DNA of 40,806 bases from Isosphaera sp. (GTDB lineage: Bacteria > Planctomycetota > Planctomycetia > Gemmatales > Gemmataceae), in contig PNKH01000075.1 in assembly GCA_013822345.1 (NCBI GenBank), positions 1-40,806 of the forward strand, in the 5' to 3' direction. A program made the position numbers and the translations under genes. Positions 5,172 through 33,700 of this stretch are shown here, in pieces. The number at the start of each line of letters is the position of its first letter. Position 1 is the first letter of the stretch. The notes under the pieces were generated by a model. The model was not told where the DNA came from. It was given only the letters and a program-made list of their open reading frames with translations, and made no database searches.

Positions 5172-5232
5172 GGTGGGGCAGGCATTCCTGCCTGCCAGAT
5201 CTCACGCGGCAGGCAGGAATGCCTGCCCCACC
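5172..5232. repeat. Family E inverted repeat, copy 1 (perfect 25-bp arms)
   Basis: Arms 5172-5196 and 5208-5232 are exact reverse complements with an 11-bp loop; core is ggcaggcattcctgcctgcc, which is itself nearly palindromic. The repeat ends 6 bp from the stop codon of the alpha/beta hydrolase. A near-identical copy with a different loop lies at 6898-6956. Confidence 0.95.
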
Positions 5233-6897: not shown

Positions 6898-6956
6898 GGG
6901 TGGGGCAGGCATTCCTGCCTGCCGGACCTTGGCAGGCAGGAATGCCTGCCCCACCC
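6898..6956. repeat. Family E inverted repeat, copy 2 (perfect 26-bp arms)
   Basis: Arms 6898-6923 and 6931-6956, 7-bp loop. Same arm sequence as the copy at 5172-5232 while the loop differs. It ends 3 bp before the stop codon of the protoglobin gene and separates it from the stress-protein gene. Confidence 0.95.
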
Positions 6957-20389: not shown

Positions 20390-20485
20390 GTAGGGTGGGC
20401 CGAGCGGGCGCTTCGCCCGCGAGTCCCACCACCGCCCCGCCCGGTGGGCCGAGGCCGGCGAAGCGCCGGCCTCGGCCCACCCTAC
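20390..20485. repeat. Family F inverted repeat, copy 2
   Basis: Outer arms GTAGGGTGGGCCGAG (left) and CTCGGCCCACCCTAC (right) pair; the inner hairpins are CGGGCG-CTT-CGCCCG on the left and a CCGGCG/CGCCGG hairpin on the right. The two inner stems differ from copy 1 by compensating changes. Located 20 bp after the small plus-strand gene and 10 bp from the ATPase stop, so it separates two convergent genes. Confidence 0.93.
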
Positions 20486-20495
20486 CGGACCGGCG

Positions 20496-21353
20496 TCAGT
20501 CGAACGCCAGGCCGGTGAGCTTCAGGAACGTCGCGTGGAAGTCGAACTCGCGGGTCCGCATCGTCGCCACCCCGCCGCCCGACACCACCGCCGCCAGCTC
20601 CCCGCGGCTCCGGTCGCTGTCCAGGTCGAACACCAGCCGCTCGCCGTCCGGGCGGGTCACGTCCACCTTCCGCTCGGTGTGCACCTGCTTGAGCGCCAGC
20701 GGCGAGTCGAGGGCGACCAGCTTCCCCCGGCAGACGATCCCGACCCGGTCGCAGATCTTCTCCACCTCGTCCATGTCGTGGGTGGTCATCACCACCGTCG
20801 CCCCGGCCTTCACCCGCTCCCGCAGGATCCGGTGGACGACCTCGGCCGAGTGGATGTCGAGGTTGGCGGTCGGCTCGTCGAGGTACAGGATGTGCGGCTC
20901 GTGCAGCAGGGCGCGGGCGAGGAGCAGCTTCTTCCGCATCCCGAGCGAGTACCCGCGGACCGGGAGGTCGGCCGCCTCGCTCAACTCGACCATCTTCAGC
21001 ACCACGTCCGCCCGCATCTTCGGGACGCCGTAGAGCTGTCCGAAGAACTCGAGGTTCCGCCGCCCGGTGAACTCCTCGAAGTGGTTCTCCCGGTCCGGGA
21101 CGTACCCGAACAGCGGCTTGATCGCGGCCCACTCCCGGACCACGTCGTACCCGCCGACCGTGACCGTTCCGGCGGTCGGGCGGCGCTGGCCGATGAGGAC
21201 GCGGATGGTGGTACTCTTGCCGGCCCCGTTCGGCCCGAGGAGCCCGAACAACTCGCCGCGGCGGATGTCCAGGTCGAGGCCGTCGACGGCCGCGAACGAG
21301 CCGTAGTGGACCCGCAGGCCGGCGAGCCGGATCATCACGTCGGAGGTGTCCAA
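20496..21353 (-). CDS. ABC transporter ATP-binding protein (partner of the ABC-2 permease)
   Basis: 285 residues. Walker A GPNGAGKST (40-48), Q-loop region replaced by a P-D-R-E-N-H segment (GYVPDRENHFEEFTG), signature YSLGMRKKLLLARALL (135-150; the usual LSGGQ is S-L-G-M-R, as in NatA/CcmA-type exporters), Walker B ILYLDE (155-160) and switch His192 (TTHDMDEV). The C-terminal ~75 residues (KVDVTRPDGERLVFDLD...) form the small extra domain of drug/Na+ exporters. It energises export by the permease at 18865-20070. The separation of the two genes by an opposite-strand gene and a repeat is unusual for such a pair. Confidence 0.94.
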   Translation of the reverse strand: MDTSDVMIRLAGLRVHYGSFAAVDGLDLDIRRGELFGLLGPNGAGKSTTIRVLIGQRRPTAGTVTVGGYDVVREWAAIKPLFGYVPDRENHFEEFTGRRNLEFFGQLYGVPKMRADVVLKMVELSEAADLPVRGYSLGMRKKLLLARALLHEPHILYLDEPTANLDIHSAEVVHRILRERVKAGATVVMTTHDMDEVEKICDRVGIVCRGKLVALDSPLALKQVHTERKVDVTRPDGERLVFDLDSDRSRGELAAVVSGGGVATMRTREFDFHATFLKLTGLAFD

Positions 21354-21451
21354 GGCCGGTCACCGCGGGTGCGGACGGGGGCGCACCCGGGAGCATAGAA
21401 CACGAAGTGGGGGCGGGGAAACCCGTCCGGAGTCGGCCGCCCGGGGTTGGC

Positions 21452-21554
21452 ACCCCGGGCTATTGGCTGCCCACCCCTTCGGGGTTCAAAGCCTGTAGCC
21501 CCGAAGGGGCGGTGAGGGAATAGCCCGGGGTGGAGCGCAGCGCAACCCCTGGCG
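21452..21554. repeat. Family A/B/C complex inverted repeat, copy C
   Basis: Nested arms: accccgggctatt (21452-21464) pairs perfectly with aatagcccggggt (21519-21531); inside, ccccttcgggg (21474-21484) pairs with ccccgaagggg (21499-21509). The right end carries the modules ggtggag and gcaacccctggcg that also occur in copies A and B around the transposase. Ends 11 bp from the stop of the small basic gene at 21566. Nothing coding is seen between 21354 and 21565. Confidence 0.88.
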
Positions 21555-21565
21555 AGCGCGGCAGG

Positions 21566-21721
21566 TCAGGCAGGTACACTTCGATCCTTGCCCGTTCGGA
21601 CAGCGGCGACGAACTGGTCCTTTCTCTTGGCGAACACCTTCGCGCGCTTGACGGACTCCGCCGCGGACAGCTTCTTCCGCGGCGGCCGGGTCTTCCTCGG
21701 CTGGGATTGCCTTTCGGCCAT
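21566..21721 (-). CDS. Small very basic protein downstream of thrS
   Basis: 51 residues, about one third Lys/Arg (MAERQSQPRKTRPPRKKLSA...). The start follows the thrS stop by 15 bp with a Shine-Dalgarno-like GAGG 7 bp ahead of the ATG, so it is probably co-transcribed with thrS. The Pro/Arg/Lys-rich N-terminus followed by a short helix (AAESVKRAKVFAKRKDQFVAAV) could bind nucleic acid. No family recognised. Confidence 0.5.
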   Translation of the reverse strand: MAERQSQPRKTRPPRKKLSAAESVKRAKVFAKRKDQFVAAVRTGKDRSVPA

Positions 21722-21735
21722 TGCGCGACCTCGCC

Positions 21736-23589
21736 TCACGGCACGAGCTTCAGGGTCCGCGAGGTGACCACCCGCTCCAGCAGCGCCAGGAACTCGGCGA
21801 CCGGCTTCGCCCCGAGGTCGACCTTGCCGCGGAGCCGCACGCTCACCGTCCCGGCCGCCAGGTCCTTGTCCCCGACCACCAGCATGTACGGCACCTTCTG
21901 GTCCTCCGCCTCCGCGATCTTCGCCTGCATCCGCCGGTCCCGCAGGTCCACGTCCACCCGGTAGTCCTTGGCGAGGAGGTCGTCGCCGAGCTTGCGGACG
22001 AACTCGAAGTGCCGGTCGGCGATCGGGACGACCGCCACCTGCACCGGGGCGAGCCACGGCGGGAACGCCCCGGCGTACAGCTCGATCAGGTACGACATCA
22101 TCCGCTCCATCGTCGAGATGACGCCGCGGTGGATCATCACCGGCCGCTTCGGGGTGTCGTCCGCGTCCTTGTACTCCAGCTTGAACTGCTCCGGCAGGTG
22201 CTGGTCGCACTGGATGGTCGAGAGCGTCTCCTCCCGCCCCATCACGTCCTTCACCTGGACGTCGATCTTCGGGCCGTAGAACGCCGCCTCGCCGTCCGCC
22301 TCGAAGAACGGCAAGCCGGACTCCTGCAGCGCCTCCCGCAGCACCGCGATGCTGCTCGCCCACATCTGCGGGTTGTCGACGTACTTCACCCTGTCCGCCG
22401 GGTCGTGCTTCGACAGCCGGAACCGGTACTCGCCGATCCCGAGGTCGGCGTACGCCCTCTTCATCAGGGCGAGCACGCCGGCGATCTCCGCCTTCACCTG
22501 GTCCGGGCGGACGAACAGGTGGGCGTCGTTGAGCGTCATGCACCGGACGCGGCTCAGCCCGCCGACGACGCCGGACTTCTCGTACCGGTACATCTTGCCG
22601 AGCTCGGCGATTCGCACCGGCAGGTCGCGGTAGCTCCGCGGCTTCGCGTTGTATACCTGGATGTGGTGCGGGCAGCACATCGGCCGGAGGCACAACTCGT
22701 CCCACTCCTGCCCGCCCTCGGCCAGGTCCATCGGCGGGAACATCCCGTCCTTGTAGTGCTCCCAGTGGCCGGAGATCCGGTACAGCTCCTTCTTCGCCAC
22801 GTCCGGGGTGTACACGTGCTGGTACCCGGCCCTCCGCTCGTAGTCGGTGATGAACTGCTCGAGCAGCCGGCGGACGGTCGCCCCCTTCGGCAGGAGCATC
22901 GGGAACCCGGACCCGAACACCGGCTCGTTGGCGAACAGCTCCAGCTCGCGGCCGAGCTTGCGGTGGTCGCGGCGGGCGGCCTCTTCCACCCGGGCGAGGT
23001 GGGCCTTCAGGTCGTCGGCGGACGCCCAGGCGGTGGCGTGGAACCGCTTCAGCCGGGCGCCCTTCTCGTCCCCGCGCCAGTACGACCCGGTCACCTGGGT
23101 GATCTGGAACGCCTTCGGGTCGAGGTCGGTGGTGACCTCGACGTGCGGCCCGCGGCACAGGTCGGTGAACGTGTCCTGGGTGTAGACGGTGATGGTCGGG
23201 GCCGACGCGGCGGCGTTGCCGTACTCGTCCTGCCCCTTGGTGAGGCCGTCGATGAGGTCGAGCTTGTACGGGTTGTCCTTGAAGAGGGCGCGGCCCTCGT
23301 CGGCCGACACCTCGCGGACCCGGAACGGGTGCTTCCCCTTGACGATCCCCCGCATCCGGTTGGCGATGAACTCGAGGTCGCCGTCGGTCGGGTTGGCGTC
23401 GAGGTCGAAGTCGTAGTAGAAGCCGAATTCGGTCGGCGGGCCGATGGTCGGCTTGGCCTGGGGGAACCGCTCGACGACGGCCTGGGCGAGGACGTGGGCG
23501 AAGGAGTGGCGGAGCTTGTACAGGGCGGGGTCGTAGTCCTTCGGGATGTACTTCTCGCCGGCGGCCTTGAGGTCGGCTTCGGATGCCAT
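21736..23589 (-). CDS. thrS: Threonyl-tRNA synthetase lacking the TGS domain
   Basis: 617 residues; charges tRNA-Thr. It starts directly at the editing (SAD) domain with HSFAH (28-32) and CRGPHV (145-150), so the usual ~60-residue N-terminal TGS domain is absent. The catalytic core follows: zinc ligands Cys305 (RPMCCPHH, where most enzymes have MNCPGH), His357 (DAH) and His487 (VMIHR); motif 2 RIAELGKMYRYEKSG...RVRCMTLNDAH; motif 3 PVMIHRGVISTMERMMSYLIE. The anticodon-binding domain begins at APVQVAVVPIADRHFEFV and ends near 610. The loss of TGS is known in some lineages. Start ATG at 23589; the longer frame upstream has no family match. Confidence 0.95.
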   Translation of the reverse strand: MASEADLKAAGEKYIPKDYDPALYKLRHSFAHVLAQAVVERFPQAKPTIGPPTEFGFYYDFDLDANPTDGDLEFIANRMRGIVKGKHPFRVREVSADEGRALFKDNPYKLDLIDGLTKGQDEYGNAAASAPTITVYTQDTFTDLCRGPHVEVTTDLDPKAFQITQVTGSYWRGDEKGARLKRFHATAWASADDLKAHLARVEEAARRDHRKLGRELELFANEPVFGSGFPMLLPKGATVRRLLEQFITDYERRAGYQHVYTPDVAKKELYRISGHWEHYKDGMFPPMDLAEGGQEWDELCLRPMCCPHHIQVYNAKPRSYRDLPVRIAELGKMYRYEKSGVVGGLSRVRCMTLNDAHLFVRPDQVKAEIAGVLALMKRAYADLGIGEYRFRLSKHDPADRVKYVDNPQMWASSIAVLREALQESGLPFFEADGEAAFYGPKIDVQVKDVMGREETLSTIQCDQHLPEQFKLEYKDADDTPKRPVMIHRGVISTMERMMSYLIELYAGAFPPWLAPVQVAVVPIADRHFEFVRKLGDDLLAKDYRVDVDLRDRRMQAKIAEAEDQKVPYMLVVGDKDLAAGTVSVRLRGKVDLGAKPVAEFLALLERVVTSRTLKLVP

Positions 23590-23737
23590 GAGGTGGTGGT
23601 CCTGGGGGCGACGCGCGTGGCACCCGGTCGCACAGCCGGAACCTCCCGCGCGTCACGGGCAGTGTACGCCACGACGGACCCGCCGGCCGGGCGGCGGGTT
23701 CGGGGGCTGGGTGCGTTCCCGTTGGTCCGCCTACGCC

Positions 23738-23896
23738 GCCAGGGGTTGCGCTCCGGCCCTGGCGGGCCGTCGCTCCACCCCTGGCTACACTCGGTCGTCC
23801 CTCCGGGACTACAAACCCGGTGCAGCCGCGGAGCGGCGACCGCCGGTAGCCAGGGGTGGAGGTCCCGCCCGGGACGGGCGGGCCGGAACCCCTGGC
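23738..23896. repeat. Family A/B/C complex inverted repeat, copy A (left of the transposase)
   Basis: Outer arms gccaggggtt (23738-23747) and aacccctggc (23887-23896); inner perfect 16-bp arms ctccacccctggctac (23773-23788) and gtagccaggggtggag (23846-23861); a central variable part. It resembles the REP/BIME layout of stem plus conserved tips. Read in reverse complement it matches copy B at 24451-24616 over most of its length, so A and B face each other around the transposase gene. Together with 23590-23737 this accounts for the space between thrS and the transposase. Confidence 0.93.
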
Positions 23897-23920
23897 TACG
23901 GAGACAGCCGGCGGGCCGGT

Positions 23921-24373
23921 TCAGTCCCACAGGTACTCCTCGTCGAACTCGACCCCGTGCTTCACCAACATGGCGCGGAACTCGTCCTGGAAGGTCCGCT
24001 CCCGGTGGTGCTCCTCCTGGTTGGCGATGTAGTCCCGGACCGCGCCGATCCCGGAGTGGCTGACGGTGAACGCCCCGTACCCGGTCTGCCACCACAGGCC
24101 GCCGGCGTCGGGGAACGTGTCGTGCACCCACCCGGACGAGCCGGCCTTGAGCTCGCGCATGAAGTCGGCGAGGGCCGTCACCTGCCGGAGGGTGACGAGC
24201 AGGTGGACGTGGTCGTCCACCCCGCCGACCTGGATCGGAACCCCGCCCGCCCCGCGGACGATCCCGCCGAGGTACTCCCACAACCGGGGGCGGACGTCCG
24301 GGGTGATCGTCGGCAGGCGGCCCTTGGTGCTAAACACGAGATGGTAGTGCAGGCAGGTGTAGGACTGCGGCAC
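23921..24373 (-). mobile_element. IS200/IS605-like Y1 transposase gene (RAYT-like), intact
   Basis: 150 residues from a GTG start (VPQSYTCLHYHLVFSTKGR), the full length of an IS200-type TnpA. The HUH metal motif is in VDDHVHLLVTL and the nucleophile tyrosine in GIGAVRDYIANQEEHH, followed by the usual tail FRAMLVKHGVEFDEEYLWD. These enzymes cut and join single-stranded DNA at subterminal hairpins and leave no target duplication. No TnpB/IscB partner is present. The flanks are two long related palindromic repeats in opposite orientation (copies A and B), as expected for REP-associated transposases that act on short dispersed hairpins. The long frame that continues upstream from here is just read-through antisense to a repeat. 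Confidence 0.9.
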
Positions 24374-24450
24374 TGGCGCACCGGGGGTTGGGGTCGGGGG
24401 TCTTCCGCGTCGCCCGCCGGGGGCTGCGCACCGGGACCTCCGCCGTCGCC

Positions 24451-24616
24451 CGCCAGGGGTTGCGCCCTCCGGGCCTCGCGGCCCGTCGCTCCACCCCTGG
24501 CTACCCTCGGTCGCCGCTCCGCGGCTGCAACGTGGGTTGTAGCCCCGGAGGGGCGGCCGACGGTAGCCAGGGGTGGAGGTCCCGCCCGGAGGGCGGGGCC
24601 GCAACCCCTGGCGGCG
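24451..24616. repeat. Family A/B/C complex inverted repeat, copy B (right of the transposase)
   Basis: Outer arms gccaggggtt (24452-24461) and aacccctggc (24603-24612); inner perfect 16-bp arms at 24489-24504 and 24563-24578 identical to those of copy A; centre ctcggtcgccgctccgcgg, which is the reverse complement of the centre of copy A. A partial direct duplication of its left end (gtcgcccgccgggggctgcgc, seen in 24409-24430 and again in 24445-24465 with small changes) lies just before it. It fills the gap between the transposase and the BNR protein gene. Confidence 0.93.
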
Positions 24617-24660
24617 TACACGGGACCGCGACGGGCCTTGGAACGGAACCGGGTTCGCCC

Positions 24661-27327
24661 CTACTCGTCCACCTTGCGGTCCTTCTCGTCGGCCTTCACC
24701 ACCACCTTCTGCGACACCGTCACCCCGCGGGCCTCCAGCGTCACCGTGTACGTCCCGGGTTTGAACTCCCCGAGCGGGTGGTAGTGCAGGCCCGGCCCCG
24801 GGACCGCGACCGCCGCCGTCCCGGACTCGCCCCCTTCGGACTTCCACCGGAACGTCACCCGCTCCGGGCCGGGGCCGTTCAGCAGGAACGCCGCGACCGG
24901 CCCGGCCGGCGGGTTCTTCGCCGCGAACGCCCCCTTCGGGATCGCCGCCGCCATCGGCGCCGGGGCCGGCCGCGGACGCTCCTTCACCACCGCCACCGGC
25001 TTGAACGGGAACAGGTGGGCGTCGGCGGTCAGCACCTGGTCGGTCAGCTGCTCCAGCGGGGCGATGTCCATCACCCACACGCCGCGGCCGTGCGTCCCGA
25101 TCACCAGCTCCCGCTCCCGCGGGTGGATCACCACGTCGTCCACCCGCACCCCCTTCGGCATCCTGGTCTTGTCGAGCAGGTGCCAGCGGACGCCGCCGTC
25201 GAGGCTGGCGAACAGCCCGATGTCGGTCCCGGCGAACAGGAGGTTCTTCGCCTTCGACGACTGCCGCACCACCCCGACCACCGCCCCGTCCGGCAGGTCG
25301 CCGGCCACCGACTTCCACGTCTGCCCGTAGTCGGTCGTCAGGAAGATGTACGGCTTGAAGTCGTCGTTCCGGTGCCGGTCGATGGCGACGAACGCGGTCC
25401 CGGGGTCGGTCGCCGGGCACTCGATCTTCGGGAACGCCCGGGCCTTCGGCACGCCGGGGATCTTGTCCCCGACCTCGGCCCAGTCCTTCCCGTCGTTCTT
25501 CGTCACCCACAGCCGGCCGTCGTCCGTCCCGACCCACAGCACCCCCGCCTTCGCCGGCGACTCGGCGGCCGACAGGATGTTGTGGGCGAAGGTCAGGACG
25601 CCGCCGTCCTTCGGCGCGGCGGACAGGTCCGGCGAGATCTTCTCCCACTTGTCGCCGCGGTTCACCGACTTGAACAGGTACTGGGCCCCGTAGTACAGCG
25701 TCTTCGGGTCGTGCGGCGAGAGGACGATCGGGGCGTTCCAGTTGTACCGGTTGGTGGCCTCCCCCTTCGGGGCGGCGGGCGGGCGGATCCCCTTCGGGGC
25801 CGCCCCCTTCGCCCCGCCCAGGGTGATCCGGCTCAGGGCCCCGTACTGGGCCTCGGCGTACACAGTGTTCGGGTCGGTCGGGTCGACCACCGCCTGGAAC
25901 CCGTCCCCGCCGAGCAGCCGCTGCCAGTCGGCCACCGTCACCCCGTCCGGGTACGGGGTGGCGACCGGGCCGCCCCAGCTGCCGTTGTCCTGCAGCCCGC
26001 CGTACACGCGGTAGTACGGGGCGCGGTCGTCCACCCCGACCCCGTAGAACTGGCTGATCACCATCCCGCGCTTCGCGGCGTACGTCTTCCCACGGTCCTT
26101 CGACACGTACAGCCCGCCGTCGTTGCCGACGATCAGGTGGTCCGGGTTCCGGGGGTTGACCCACAGGGCGTGGTGGTCGGAGTGCATCCCCTTGCCGATG
26201 CTGTCGAACGTCCGCCCGCCGTCCGACGACCCGTGGAACGCGACCCCCAGGACGTACAGGTTCTTCTCGTCGACCGGGTCGACCCGGACCTGGCCGTAGT
26301 AGAACGGCCGCGGCACGAGGTCGTTGATCTTCTTCCACGTCAGCCCCTTGTCCTCGGACCGGAAGACCCCCCCCTTCTCGACCGGCCCGACCTTCCCGGC
26401 CGCGCTCGCCGGCTGGCCGGTGTTCGATGTCTGGCCGGCCGTCTCGGACGTGTGGACGACGGCGAACACCACCTTCGGGTCCTTGCGGTAGACGCTCAGC
26501 CCGCACCGCCCGTAGTCGGCCTTCTCGGGGAGCCCGCCGGCCATCTTCGCCCACGTCTTCCCGGCGTCGGTCGACTGGAACAGCCCGCCGGCCGGGCCGA
26601 CCTGGGTGCGCGGGCTGCCGCCGGAGTACCCGTCGCGGCGCAGCTGCCACGCGGCGGCGTACAGGGTGTTCGGGTCGGACGGGTCCATCTGCAGGTCGAC
26701 GAACCCGGTGTCGGCGTCGAGGAACTGGACCAGGTCCCACGTCTTCCCGCCGTCGGTCGTCTTGTACAGCCCGCGGGACTTGTTCGGCCCCCAGAAGTGG
26801 CCGAGGGCGGCGACGTAGGCGGTGTCCGGGTCGGTCGGGTGAGCCACCACGCGGCCGATGTGGTGGGTGTCGGCCAGCCCGCAGTCCCGCCACGTCTTCC
26901 CGCCGTCGCCGGAGCGGAACACGCCGTACCCGCGGCTGACCGAGTTCCGCGGGTTCCCCTCGCCGGTCCCGACCCACACCACCTCCGGCTTCGCCTGGCA
27001 GACGGCGACGGACCCGACGCTCTGGGTCGGCTGGTCGTCGAACACGGGGGCGAGGGTGGTGCCGCCGTCGGTCGTCTTCCACACCCCGCCGCCGGCGGTG
27101 GCGAGGTAGAACGTGTCCGGGTTGCTCTCGACGACGGCGAGGTCGGTGACGCGGCCGCCCATGTTCGCCGGCCCGATGTTCCGGGCCTTCAGCCCGGCGA
27201 GGACGGCCGGGTACGGGTCGGCGGGGGCGACCTTCGGCCGCGGCTGCGGGACGGCCTCCGGGGCGGCGGTGGCGGACAGGTGGACGAGGGCGATGGCCGC
27301 GAGCGCGGCCGCCGGCAGGCGGGACAT
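24661..27327 (-). CDS. Secreted BNR/Asp-box beta-propeller protein (sortilin/Vps10-like, often annotated glycosyl hydrolase)
   Basis: 888 residues with a signal peptide (about 1-21, ending ATAAPE). Residues 45-780 carry many Asp-box repeats (S/T-x-D-x-G-x-T/R-W/F), for example TTDGGTTLAP, SGDGGKTWRD, TTDGGKTWDL, STDAGKTWAK, SEDKGLTWKK, SSDGGRTFDS, SKDRGKTYAA and TTDYGQTWKS, spaced as in two beta-propellers of the sortilin/BNR class. The last ~100 residues form an Ig-like tail (VTVSQKVVVKAD). Such proteins bind or cleave glycans or peptides; no catalytic residues can be named. Start at the ATG before the signal peptide. Preceded by a repeat element and followed, on the same strand, by the transposase repeat B. 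Confidence 0.9.
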   Translation of the reverse strand: MSRLPAAALAAIALVHLSATAAPEAVPQPRPKVAPADPYPAVLAGLKARNIGPANMGGRVTDLAVVESNPDTFYLATAGGGVWKTTDGGTTLAPVFDDQPTQSVGSVAVCQAKPEVVWVGTGEGNPRNSVSRGYGVFRSGDGGKTWRDCGLADTHHIGRVVAHPTDPDTAYVAALGHFWGPNKSRGLYKTTDGGKTWDLVQFLDADTGFVDLQMDPSDPNTLYAAAWQLRRDGYSGGSPRTQVGPAGGLFQSTDAGKTWAKMAGGLPEKADYGRCGLSVYRKDPKVVFAVVHTSETAGQTSNTGQPASAAGKVGPVEKGGVFRSEDKGLTWKKINDLVPRPFYYGQVRVDPVDEKNLYVLGVAFHGSSDGGRTFDSIGKGMHSDHHALWVNPRNPDHLIVGNDGGLYVSKDRGKTYAAKRGMVISQFYGVGVDDRAPYYRVYGGLQDNGSWGGPVATPYPDGVTVADWQRLLGGDGFQAVVDPTDPNTVYAEAQYGALSRITLGGAKGAAPKGIRPPAAPKGEATNRYNWNAPIVLSPHDPKTLYYGAQYLFKSVNRGDKWEKISPDLSAAPKDGGVLTFAHNILSAAESPAKAGVLWVGTDDGRLWVTKNDGKDWAEVGDKIPGVPKARAFPKIECPATDPGTAFVAIDRHRNDDFKPYIFLTTDYGQTWKSVAGDLPDGAVVGVVRQSSKAKNLLFAGTDIGLFASLDGGVRWHLLDKTRMPKGVRVDDVVIHPRERELVIGTHGRGVWVMDIAPLEQLTDQVLTADAHLFPFKPVAVVKERPRPAPAPMAAAIPKGAFAAKNPPAGPVAAFLLNGPGPERVTFRWKSEGGESGTAAVAVPGPGLHYHPLGEFKPGTYTVTLEARGVTVSQKVVVKADEKDRKVDE

Positions 27328-30788: not shown

Positions 30789-33700
30789 TCACTGCGGGCG
30801 GACGAGCCCCTCGGCTTCCTTCACCAGCACCTCCAGCGCCGCCCGCTCCTGCCACGGCAGCGCGTCCCACCGCGACGGCCTCCCGCCGCCCGCCGGCTTG
30901 CGCGCGTCGTCGACCCACGCCTTCGCCTTGTCGAGCCAGTCGGCGGCCGCCTTGTCGCCGGTCTGGTGGAGGGCCATCGCCAGGAACAGCCACACCGCCG
31001 GGGACGGGTCCGGGCGGAGGCGGCGGGCGGCGTCGAGCTGCTTGACCGCCTCGTCGAACTTCCCGGCCCGGTACAGGACGGCCCCGTAGCTCCGGGCGAA
31101 CGGGTAGCTCCGCGGGTCGGCCCGGGCGCAGGCGAGGGCCGCCGCGGCCAGCCGGTCGTAGTCCGCCACCGCCTCCGGCCGCAGCGCGCACACCCACGCC
31201 GCGAGGGAGACCGTGTGCGGGTCGAACGCGGTCGGGGTGCCGAACGGGTGGACCGTCTGGCGGCCGAAGTCCCCGGTCACGATCCCCTGCTTCTCCCCGG
31301 GGACGGCCGGGACGAACACGTGCGCCAGGTTCCGGCACGCGGCGTCGCACTCGGCCCCGCGGCCGGCGGCCAGGTACGCCCGGGCGAGGTCGAGCCACGC
31401 CGCCGGGTTGAGCGGGCCGTTCACGTTGATCAGGTTCTGCGGGATGCGGGTCAGGTCGAGGTTCTCCCCGTGCGACTCCCCGAGCGCGGCCCGGCGCAGG
31501 TCCCCGATCGCATTCGCCCACTCCCCGCCGGCCGCCCGGGCGGCCCCGCGGCCGTGCCACAGGTGCGACGGCACCCCGTCCGCCTCCCGCCAGTACCCGA
31601 ACAGGCCGGTCTTCGGGTACCCGGCGATGGCCCGGTCGAACGCCGCCGCCGACCCCTTCCAGTCCCCGACCCGGGCCGCGACCCGGCCGAGATGGGCGTG
31701 CGGCTCCCACCGGTCCGGGGCGAGCGCCGCCGCCCGCTCGAACTCCCGCCGGGCCGGGTCCGGGCGGTCGACCCGGAAGAGGGCCGCCCCGTGGCGGAGC
31801 CGCAGGTCGGGGTCGGCCGGGTGCCGGGCGGCGAGGCGCTCCAGGTGCCACCGGGCCGCCTCCCACGCCCCCTCCGCCTCCCCGAGCGCGGCCGACCGGC
31901 GGTGCCACCCGTCCGGGTCGGGCGACGCCGGCTCCCCCGCCGCGGACTTCCGGAACCCCGCCCGCGCCTCGGCCCACCCGGCGGCGTCGAGGAGCCGGGT
32001 CACCCCGTCCGCGTCGCGGCGCATCCCGGTGACCACCTCCAGCCACGCGGTCACGTCCCGGGGCGGTAGGGCGACCGGCCCGGGGACCGCCCACAGCGCC
32101 CCGGCCCCGTCGTCCCCGGCGGTGACCGCCGCGCGACCGTCCGGGCGGAACGCCGCCACCCGGACCTGGTCCCGGTGGGGCAGCGGCGGCCCGACCGGCA
32201 GCCCGGTCGCCGCGTCCCACAGCCGCCCGGCCCCGTCCTCCCCGCCGGACAGGATCAGCCGGCCGTCCGGCGAGTAGGCCGCCGCCAGCACCCGCCCCGG
32301 GTGCGGCATCGACCGGCCGACCGGCCCGCCGGTGTCGGTCCGCCACGTCCGGACCGACCCGTCCCAGCTCGCCGTCAGGAACGTCTTCCCGTCCGGGGCG
32401 AACGCCGCCGCCACCACCGCCGCCCGATGCCGGGCCGGCTCCCCGATGAGGTTGCCCGTCTCGGTCTCCCACACCCGGGCCGCCCCGTCCCCGCCGGCCG
32501 TCAGGACCGTCTTCCCGTCCGGGGCGAAGGCGACCGCGACCACCGGGCCGTCGTGCCGGGCGGGCCGGCCGACCGGCTTCCCGTGCCACCGGTCGCCCGG
32601 CCGGTCGTTCGGGTCCCGGGCCGGGGTCACGTCCCAGACCCGCACCGTGCCGTCCCTCCGGCCGACCGCCACCCGGGTCCCGTCCGGGCCGACGGCGACC
32701 GCGTACACGTCCCGCTCGTCGCCCGGGCCGAACCCGCCGAACGCCGGCTCCTCCCGCGGGTCGGCCAGCGTCATCTTCACCCACAACTCGTCGGCGTCGA
32801 CCCGGTACGCCTTCCCGTCGCGACACCCGAACGCGAACCACGCCCCGCCCGGGGCGAACGCGAGGGCGTGGACCGGGGAGGTCTGGTTCCGGCGGCCCGG
32901 GACCCGCCCCGTCCCCTTCCCGCGGGCCGGGCCCCAGACCGGGTCCGGGTCGTCGAACCAGTTCCACGAGTCGCGGTCGCCGCCGAGCCCGAGGGCACCC
33001 GGGCGGGCGCTGGTCACCCGGACCGGGAGCTTGTCCGGGATCCCCGGGGTCGGCGCCTTCCCCGGCCACGTGTCGCGGACGACCGCCCGGCCGAGCCGGG
33101 CGTCCCAGAACAGGACCTCGCCGGTGTCGCCGGCGGACAGCAGGAGCTTGCCGTCCGGGGCGAACGCGAGGGCGTTCACCTCGTTCCCGTGGGGGAGCGG
33201 CCCGCCGACCGGCTCCCCGGTCCGGGCGTCCCACAGCCGGGCGGTCCCGTCCCGGCTCCCGGTGGCGAACCGGGTCCCGCCGCGGTCGACCGCCACGCAC
33301 AGGACCGGGCCGGCGTGGGCCAGCGGCGGGCCGGCGACCTGGCCGACCCCGACCCGCCACCGGCGGGCGTCCCCGGCCCCGCGCCCCTGGGCGGTGAACA
33401 CCGTCCGCCCGTCCGGCCCGAACGCCACCCCGAGCACCTCCTCGGAGTGCGCCAGCAGCTGCCCGACCGCGGCCCCGCCCGGCACTTGCCACACCCGGGC
33501 CGTCCGGTCGGTGCCGCCGCTGACCAGGGTCAGCCCGTCCGGGCTGAAGGCCACGGACGTGACCCGCCCGGTGTGGGCCAGCGGCGGGCCGGCCGCCTCC
33601 CCGGTGCCGGCGTCGAGCACCCGGGCCGCCCGGTCGTCCCCGCCGACCGCCAGCCACCGGCCGTCGGGGGAGAAGGCGACCGCGTTCACCGGCTCGTCCG

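Follow-up and report, generated by a model that had tools for sequence, protein, structure and literature searches.

A single-copy Y1 transposase gene of subclass 1.2 type framed by GTAG-foot REP pairs in a planctomycete genome

The Y1 gene and the repeats of the window

The window, i.e. the whole stretch of 40,806 nucleotides that was analysed, is contig C75 of an Isosphaera sp. genome (7.47 Mb, 226 contigs, completeness 95.2%). At 23921–24373 it carries on the (-) strand a Y1 HUH transposase gene of the TnpA-Y1 subclass 1.2 type, which starts with GTG and encodes 150 aa. Its neighbors are a class-II tRNA synthetase gene according to Pfam, named thrS in the original prediction, on one side and a Sortilin/Vps10-type gene on the other. 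The gene had been predicted to lie intact between two repeat copies, A and B, and this was confirmed: the open frame is uninterrupted by stop codons and the protein matches Pfam Y1_Tnp with 79.3 bits. The HUH motif is formed by D54-H55-V56-H57, the catalytic tyrosine is Y115, and W95-Q96 and Q119 are further characteristic residues. Two protein alignments (31 and 52 rows) show no variation at H55, H57, W95, Q96, Q119 and H122; at Y115 one of them shows none either, and the other at least 90% conservation. When the genome was searched for other transposase copies, this gene was the sole match of its protein group.

Repeats A and B are both REPINs, each consisting of two inverted REPs that point apart around a palindromic centre. 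Every REP is a GTAG foot on a hairpin with the pattern GTAGCC[AG]GGGGT...ACCCC[CT]GG. REPIN A (23738–23899) is located 3’ of the Y1 gene, about 21 bp from the stop codon. It comprises REP A1 (23739–23788, (-) strand; GTAG foot and CCAGGGGT...ACCCCTGG hairpin), a centre (23789–23845) of beta palindrome (GTCCCTCCGGGAC), short spacer and alpha palindrome (GCCGCGGAGCGGC), and REP A2 (23846–23895, (+) strand; GTAG foot and hairpin). A2 is followed by CTAC at 23896–23899 and therefore has a foot at both ends. REPIN B (24453–24612) lies on the 5’ side, some 79 bp away from the start codon, and comprises REP B1 (24453–24504, (-) strand), a centre (24505–24562) in which alpha precedes beta, the polarity opposite to A, and REP B2 (24563–24611, (+) strand), both REPs again with GTAG foot and hairpin. 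The hairpins nearest to the gene are B1 and A2, in inverted orientation.

A and B are genuine repeats, well outside chance expectation: folded as single strands they reach z values of -6.6 and -10.5, respectively, with 0 of 200 shuffles as good in either case. Within the A/B family the evidence for pairing is weak (93.4% of cells paired vs 92.9% in shuffles), as is that for covariation (score 0.073 vs 0.059; 12 of 500 shuffles as high). No Rfam family matched positions 21300–24800 at gathering scores. The two 16-bp arms (CTCCACCCCTGGCTAC / GTAGCCAGGGGTGGAG) and the outer GCCAGGGGTT / AACCCCTGGC arms were found as originally described; what is added here is the GTAG foot, which makes each arm a canonical REP, and the copy number in the genome. 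The description of A and B as opposed copies holds for their centres (beta-alpha in A, alpha-beta in B) and not for the repeats as a whole, which are near-palindromes matching both ways, slightly better in direct orientation (84%) than in reverse complement (80%).

Repeat C had been taken for a third relative of A and B. It is instead a REPIN of a different family with ATAG feet and the stem CCCGGGGT, better bounded by 21440–21552 than by the earlier 21452–21554. Its perfect REP lies at 21440–21463 ((-) strand, ATAG foot), the second, recognised by eye and with one stem mismatch, at 21520–21552 ((+) strand). The hairpin pair is real (single-strand fold z -4.6), and the family (ATAGCCCGGGGT) has 51 pattern matches in the genome, with 0 in the control; the matches listed are mostly paired, and a few read one site more than once in overlapping form. 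On account of its foot, its stem and its own 51 matches C was rejected as an A/B copy. C-type REPs frame L067 and L068 in genome G090, which has 37 matches, and also L090 and L123. A likely cognate enzyme was not found in the window’s own genome, where only one gene of the protein group is present. With 51 matches and no cognate gene, C looks like an orphan REP family, the trace of an enzyme that was lost or lies in the unassembled part of this 95.2% complete genome.

Two further repeat types of the window resemble repeats that frame class-2 Y1 genes of the same genome or their homologues. GTAGGGTGGG repeats (1574–1667, 20390–20485 and 37389) correspond to those found around L285 and L235. These two genes are homologues of L237, a class-2 gene of the window’s genome that has GTAGGGTGCG hairpins on its own flanks. 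GGCAGGCATTCC repeats, or GGCAGGCATTCCTGCC-type nested palindromes (5177–5227 and 6904–6950), are of a type that also frames the own class-2 Y1 gene L031 (G000:C14:8378) and runs into its open frame upstream. A rule of one enzyme for one repeat family seems to hold among the window repeats. Elsewhere in the window (32164–33636) a 75-nt repeat occurs seven times, mostly at a spacing of 126 bp, and is perhaps a coding repeat of WD/beta-propeller type.

Dispersal of the repeats and hairpins at related genes

A genome search for A/B copies bore out that the repeat is dispersed. The foot-plus-hairpin pattern gave 103 matches and its reversed control none; the 16-base core GTAGCC[AG]GGGGTGGAG occurred 49 + 50 times and the reversed pattern once. 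Leaving aside an overlapping A site (C75:23850) and three further matches, 99 typed REP sites were obtained, 88 of them in 44 close pairs and 11 single. The feet point inward in 38 pairs, 37 of these with a gap of 54–62 bp, and outward in 6. The outward pairs, a second dimer type, are located on C23, C29, C52 (two), C61 and C68. Of 26 distinct REPIN centres of the own genome 25 could be classified (the exception is L025), and all 25 are alpha/beta, 13 one way and 12 the other, in a sample that is non-random because the loci were the best matches to A. The alpha palindrome is GCCGCGGAGCGGC and the beta palindrome G[CT]CCC..GGG[AG]C; 24 of the centres were aligned. We read these polar centres as descendants of one asymmetric founder that spread as a pair. 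Among 11 centres from other genomes 3 were alpha/beta, 6 beta/beta and 2 unclear. The dispersal of two inverted REPs as a unit (44 pairs among 99 typed sites) is like that of REPINs or BIMEs as characterised in Bertels and Rainey 2011 and Quentin 2018; unlike these, the repeats have a palindromic polar alpha/beta centre and, in many arms, extra apical hairpins.

The surroundings of related genes were scanned for all 256 tetranucleotides located directly before a perfect 8-bp stem (loop 3–60) within 700 bp of the gene. Of 95 genomes of the family, 58 had a match to the protein at E <= 1e-10, 141 matches in total, and 110 genes were scanned after 31 matches had been left out. GTAG (94 hairpins at 34 genes), ATAG (54 at 29) and TTAG (38 at 16) took ranks one to three, and 72 of the 110 genes had an NTAG hairpin. 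Beyond 900 bp, the counts at the family loci were 4, 3 and 2, respectively, in 178 kb. The scan was repeated with 78 genes from a separate search, for which 80 loci had been kept from at least 584 in named genomes and L204 and L209 were dropped as the same loci as in G052 and G015. Again GTAG (55), ATAG (40) and TTAG (38) led, the next best tetranucleotide reaching 15, and 59 of 78 genes had an NTAG hairpin; beyond 900 bp GTAG was found 11, ATAG 6 and TTAG 3 times in 208 kb, and 16 of the 78 loci had an NTAG hairpin at this distance.

Pooling both sets, an NTAG hairpin is present at 131 of 188 subclass-1.2 genes vs 6 of 67 loci of IS200 proper (Fisher p 8e-19, relatedness ignored); near the remaining 57 genes no NTAG hairpin of such strength was found. 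The count for IS200 proper, from 80 subclass-1.1 loci minus 13 with identical cores, is at background level. At six further planctomycete IS200-like loci GTAG and ATAG were each found 0 times and TTAG once. Class 2 is an only fair positive control: at 30 genes its known foot GTGG ranked second (32 hairpins, 11 genes) behind CCGC (34 hairpins, 9 genes), and GTAG gave 12 hairpins at 4 genes. NTAG hairpins flank 79 subclass-1.2 genes on either side, and at 61 of these the two closest to the gene have the inverted +/- orientation. By record title, the genes with NTAG hairpins come among others from Planctomycetota, Verrucomicrobiota, Acidobacteria, Methylobacter, Desulfobacteraceae, Geotalea, Nitrospirae, Zixiibacteriota, Calditrichaceae and Bacteroidetes; for a few with a single hairpin this may be a chance occurrence. 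Two very similar subclass-1.2 genes, L099 (G012) and L101 (G009), have no NTAG hairpins and are framed by CAGCCCAGGGCAACGCCCTGGG palindromes, perhaps with another foot.

The predicted link between repeat and gene recurs in the close clade of the window gene. The core GTAGCC[AG]GGGGT was located within 700 bp of 12 of the 13 genes at least 65% identical to the window protein (window included) and of 4 of the 174 genes below 65%. Stem and protein diverge together: an 8-nt stem arm is shared by 69% of gene pairs at 70–80% protein identity, 42% at 60–70%, 9% at 50–60% and 4% at 40–50%. The foot base likewise clusters on the protein tree, with 28 changes compared to a shuffled mean of 52.7 (range 45–61). 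Of all residues, position 6 in the first strand stood out most in its excess mutual information with the foot base, T/S going with G, A/V/I with A and L with T. Restricting the comparison to independent pairs on supported branches left 10 pairs and little power (sign test median p 0.625), and a residue-foot code at position 6 is a lead only, its independence from descent not being demonstrable. For the E. coli enzyme, the sections of PMC8266576 (2021) on GTAG contacts place these in strand 1, around strand 4 and at the C-terminus, and tie the foot to the choice of cleavage site.

We then compared genome counts of GTAGCC[AG]GGGGT hairpins (loops 6–45) within the family. The 58 genomes with a gene of the group contain 481 REP matches in sum and the 37 genomes without it 21, a comparison confounded by relatedness. 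Abundance of the repeats in relatives lacking the transposase had been named as evidence against a link. By this measure the outcome is mixed. Of the 37 gene-less genomes (E <= 1e-10) 33 have zero A/B-type REPs, but REPs occur without a close intact gene in G010 (11, no group gene), G012 (47, distant homologues only, 49% or less) and G013 (38, half a gene only, with no A/B core near it). Outside the family, the NTAGCC[AG]GGGGT hairpin is repeated in the genomes of L149 (Pan216, 35), L214 (28), L179 (19), L178 (11) and L206 (7) and nearly absent in those of L192 (4), L147 (2) and L187 (1). None was found in the genomes of L184, L195, L212 and L213, where the gene is accompanied by REPs of another kind or by none. 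With the reversed pattern, none of the 18 genomes searched gave a match.

Sites from G012 were queried against G009, and for 15 of 19 the flanks were found at 86–99% identity. At 6 of these 15 sites the orthologous stretch of G009 lacks the core that is present in G012. At one of the six (L269/L293) another REP type stands in its place. At L277/L300, as we interpret the aligned sequences, the G012 REPIN occupies the loop of a different palindrome whose G009 counterpart is short and empty. No clean empty site was obtained between G012 and G009, the flanks being too diverged for exact ends or a target duplication. Presence or absence of single copies, which the original prediction had suggested looking for, thus differs between relatives; the difference shows turnover of REPINs without identifying their mover, G012 having no close gene. 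At L277 and L283 of G012, longer palindromes with arms such as CCACAAAAAGGCACAAA... enclose REPINs in their loop, and hairpins may grow by nesting at their tips.

Relationship of the enzyme to IS200 and RAYT proteins

Placed by its sequence motifs (Y---Q--HH, WQ, DH[IV]H), the window enzyme is a TnpA-Y1 protein of subclass 1.2, which forms a class-1 branch separate from 1.1. Aligned members of the group share W95-Q96 and Q119--H122. In a tree of 47 rows, 26 subclass-1.2-type proteins fall on one branch (96/88), IS200 proper (1.1) on another (97/87), and class 2 is far off (100/100). Quentin 2018’s own sequences and class 3 were not among these rows, nor was L154, a 33-aa frame included in the hairpin count. 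The class-3 features W[TA], YV[VI][AENY]EQ and about 178 aa are absent, the window protein having WQ, YIANQ and 150 aa. The subclass table in Quentin 2018 (PMC6006769) gives WQ and Y---Q--HH as the signature of 1.2 and lists it with “REP: no” and with Cyanobacteria/Bacteroidetes. The window group resembles this entry in Y---Q--HH, WQ, DH[IV]H, a length of about 148–150 aa and a low, divergent copy number, and departs from it in the NTAG hairpins within 700 bp of 131 of 188 genes across many phyla. The W-Q motif is common to several REP-bearing subclasses of the same table. Among the titles and abstract beginnings found by searching open-licence literature none reports REPs at subclass 1.2, which is no proof of absence in print. 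GTAG repeats are reported for R. baltica and O. terrae in PMC3733652 (2013), whose main text mentions neither ATAG nor TTAG.

Among the 70 proteins listed, at least three relatives (L044, L051 and L056) lack the catalytic tyrosine. One of them, L051 of G045, is nonetheless framed by A/B-type REPs, of which G045 has 29 matches.

A phylogeny of the protein against RAYT and IS200 groups had been proposed as a check. It gave a divided answer: the protein groups with IS200 transposases, yet it does not behave like an insertion sequence. With very low probability, A and B could be the ends of an ordinary IS200/IS605 insertion sequence whose deletion derivatives make up the dispersed copies. In favor of this, the protein scores 58.4 bits with the NCBIfam IS200 model, above the cutoff of 55, and its AlphaFold model (pLDDT 93.3) is closest to the TnpA proteins of ISDra2 and IS608 (Z about 14) as compared to 10.1 for TnpA-REP (4er8); Foldseek and VIA rows beyond IS200-type and TnpA-REP proteins were set aside as common ferredoxin-like folds. 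Sister branch, Y---Q motif and a length of about 150 aa also recall IS200/IS605 TnpA (1.1). This reading is disfavored by the copies: the gene is single in its own genome, and 112 pairs of within-genome copies in relatives have a median identity of 46% and a maximum of 84%, with 0 of 112 at 90% or above, so that no gene multiplying as an IS unit in near-identical copies was found. In addition, most dispersed copies are whole REP pairs separated by 54–62 bp, and a scan of viral contigs with the subclass-1.2 alignment returned 0 relatives from 56 candidate stretches, compared to 367 with the IS200-proper alignment. Unlike IS200/IS605, the genes of the window group occur once or in a few divergent copies, with high-copy REPs around them, and their proteins have HH after the Y motif and WQ where 1.1 has W[TS].

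The RAYT-defining paper of 2010 reportedly has Nunvar as author. The defining passages of PMC2817692 (2010) name inverted flanking REPs, a GT(A/G)G head, REP numbers in step with presence of the gene, and the motif NP(L/V)(R/K)xG. At the window gene the two inverted flanking REPs (B1 and A2) and the GT(A/G)G head are present; NP(L/V)(R/K)xG is absent beside the catalytic tyrosine, where YIANQEEHHRER stands. Together with the score against the NCBIfam RAYT model NF047646 (18.4 bits, curated cutoff 80) and the grouping with IS200 transposases, the missing NPxxxG rules out a classical RAYT. Of the original proposal of a REP/RAYT system, the layout of a single-copy Y1 gene between inverted REPs was retained and the classical RAYT identity was not.

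A probable REPtron and its alternatives

We regard the locus as a REPtron, with a probability of roughly 80%: a resident single-copy HUH/Y1 enzyme of subclass 1.2 that is framed by, and most likely acts on, GTAG-foot REPs arranged in asymmetric REPINs. It is a REPtron of a new variety, in which an IS200-side enzyme behaves in a RAYT-like way; that the enzyme recognizes, cuts, joins and moves the REPs is what we infer. The single-copy Y1 gene and the inverted GTAG-foot hairpins are like those of RAYT/TnpA-REP REPtrons (described in part in PMC2817692; class 2 in Quentin 2018; E. coli, PDB 4er8), as are the many dispersed REP pairs, the co-divergence of REP and protein and a gene that does not multiply as an IS. 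The differences from RAYTs are the position on the IS200 side of the tree, YIANQEEHH instead of NP(L/V)(R/K)xG, the RAYT score of 18.4 against a cutoff of 80, and feet that in sister clades are also ATAG and TTAG.

A REP strand that turns single-stranded, e.g. during replication, would fold, and the enzyme would read the hairpin stem together with its foot, which is GTAG in the present case and in sister clades ATAG or TTAG. The presumed substrates are single-stranded GTAGCCAGGGGT hairpins. Y115 would cut next to foot and stem, and the enzyme would stay joined to the 5’ end and then rejoin the ends. In this way a whole REPIN could be cut out or copied and settle at a new site, the gene staying in place.

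The REPs might also be mere landing sites, the gene having settled in an existing REP cluster and the palindromes being kept as terminators, mRNA ends or sites for nucleoid proteins. REPs without a close gene in G010, G012 and G013 and the nesting of other palindromes with REPINs speak for this. We consider it hardly probable, since a chance landing site gives neither the co-divergence of stem and protein nor the inverted +/- layout in 61 of 79 genes. Least likely is that A and B are moved by a class-2 RAYT encoded elsewhere in the genome, the framed gene being a bystander: there are three class-2 matches, one of which, L237 (C14:52618), lies about 1.7 kb from a REPIN at C14:54686, but the flanks disfavor it, as GTAGCC[AG]GGGGT is found at 0 of 11 class-2 loci scanned, L237 included, other repeats frame L237 (GTAGGGTGCG), L285/L235 (GTAGGGTGGG) and L031 (GGCAGGCATTCC), and the REP-rich genomes G009, G013, G018 and G045 have no class-2 match at E <= 1e-20 (one model).

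Returning to the REPtron, we lean, with less confidence, towards extending it to subclass 1.2 as a whole, which would then stand beside the class-2 RAYTs as a second, parallel lineage of REP transposases, spread over many phyla and with a relaxed foot DTAG (GTAG, ATAG or TTAG by clade). If so, a GTAG-guided REP life arose twice or predates the split of IS200 and RAYT. Subclass 1.2, filed as REP-free and without an assigned role, gains a likely substrate, and several hairpin families of one planctomycete genome are tied to likely enzymes, one of them to an enzyme that was seemingly lost. Natural pairs of enzyme and REP with differing foot bases and stems are numerous in the subclass. They make it possible to test how foot and stem are read by a Y1 enzyme, and whether IS200-type enzymes were tamed into REP movers once or repeatedly.
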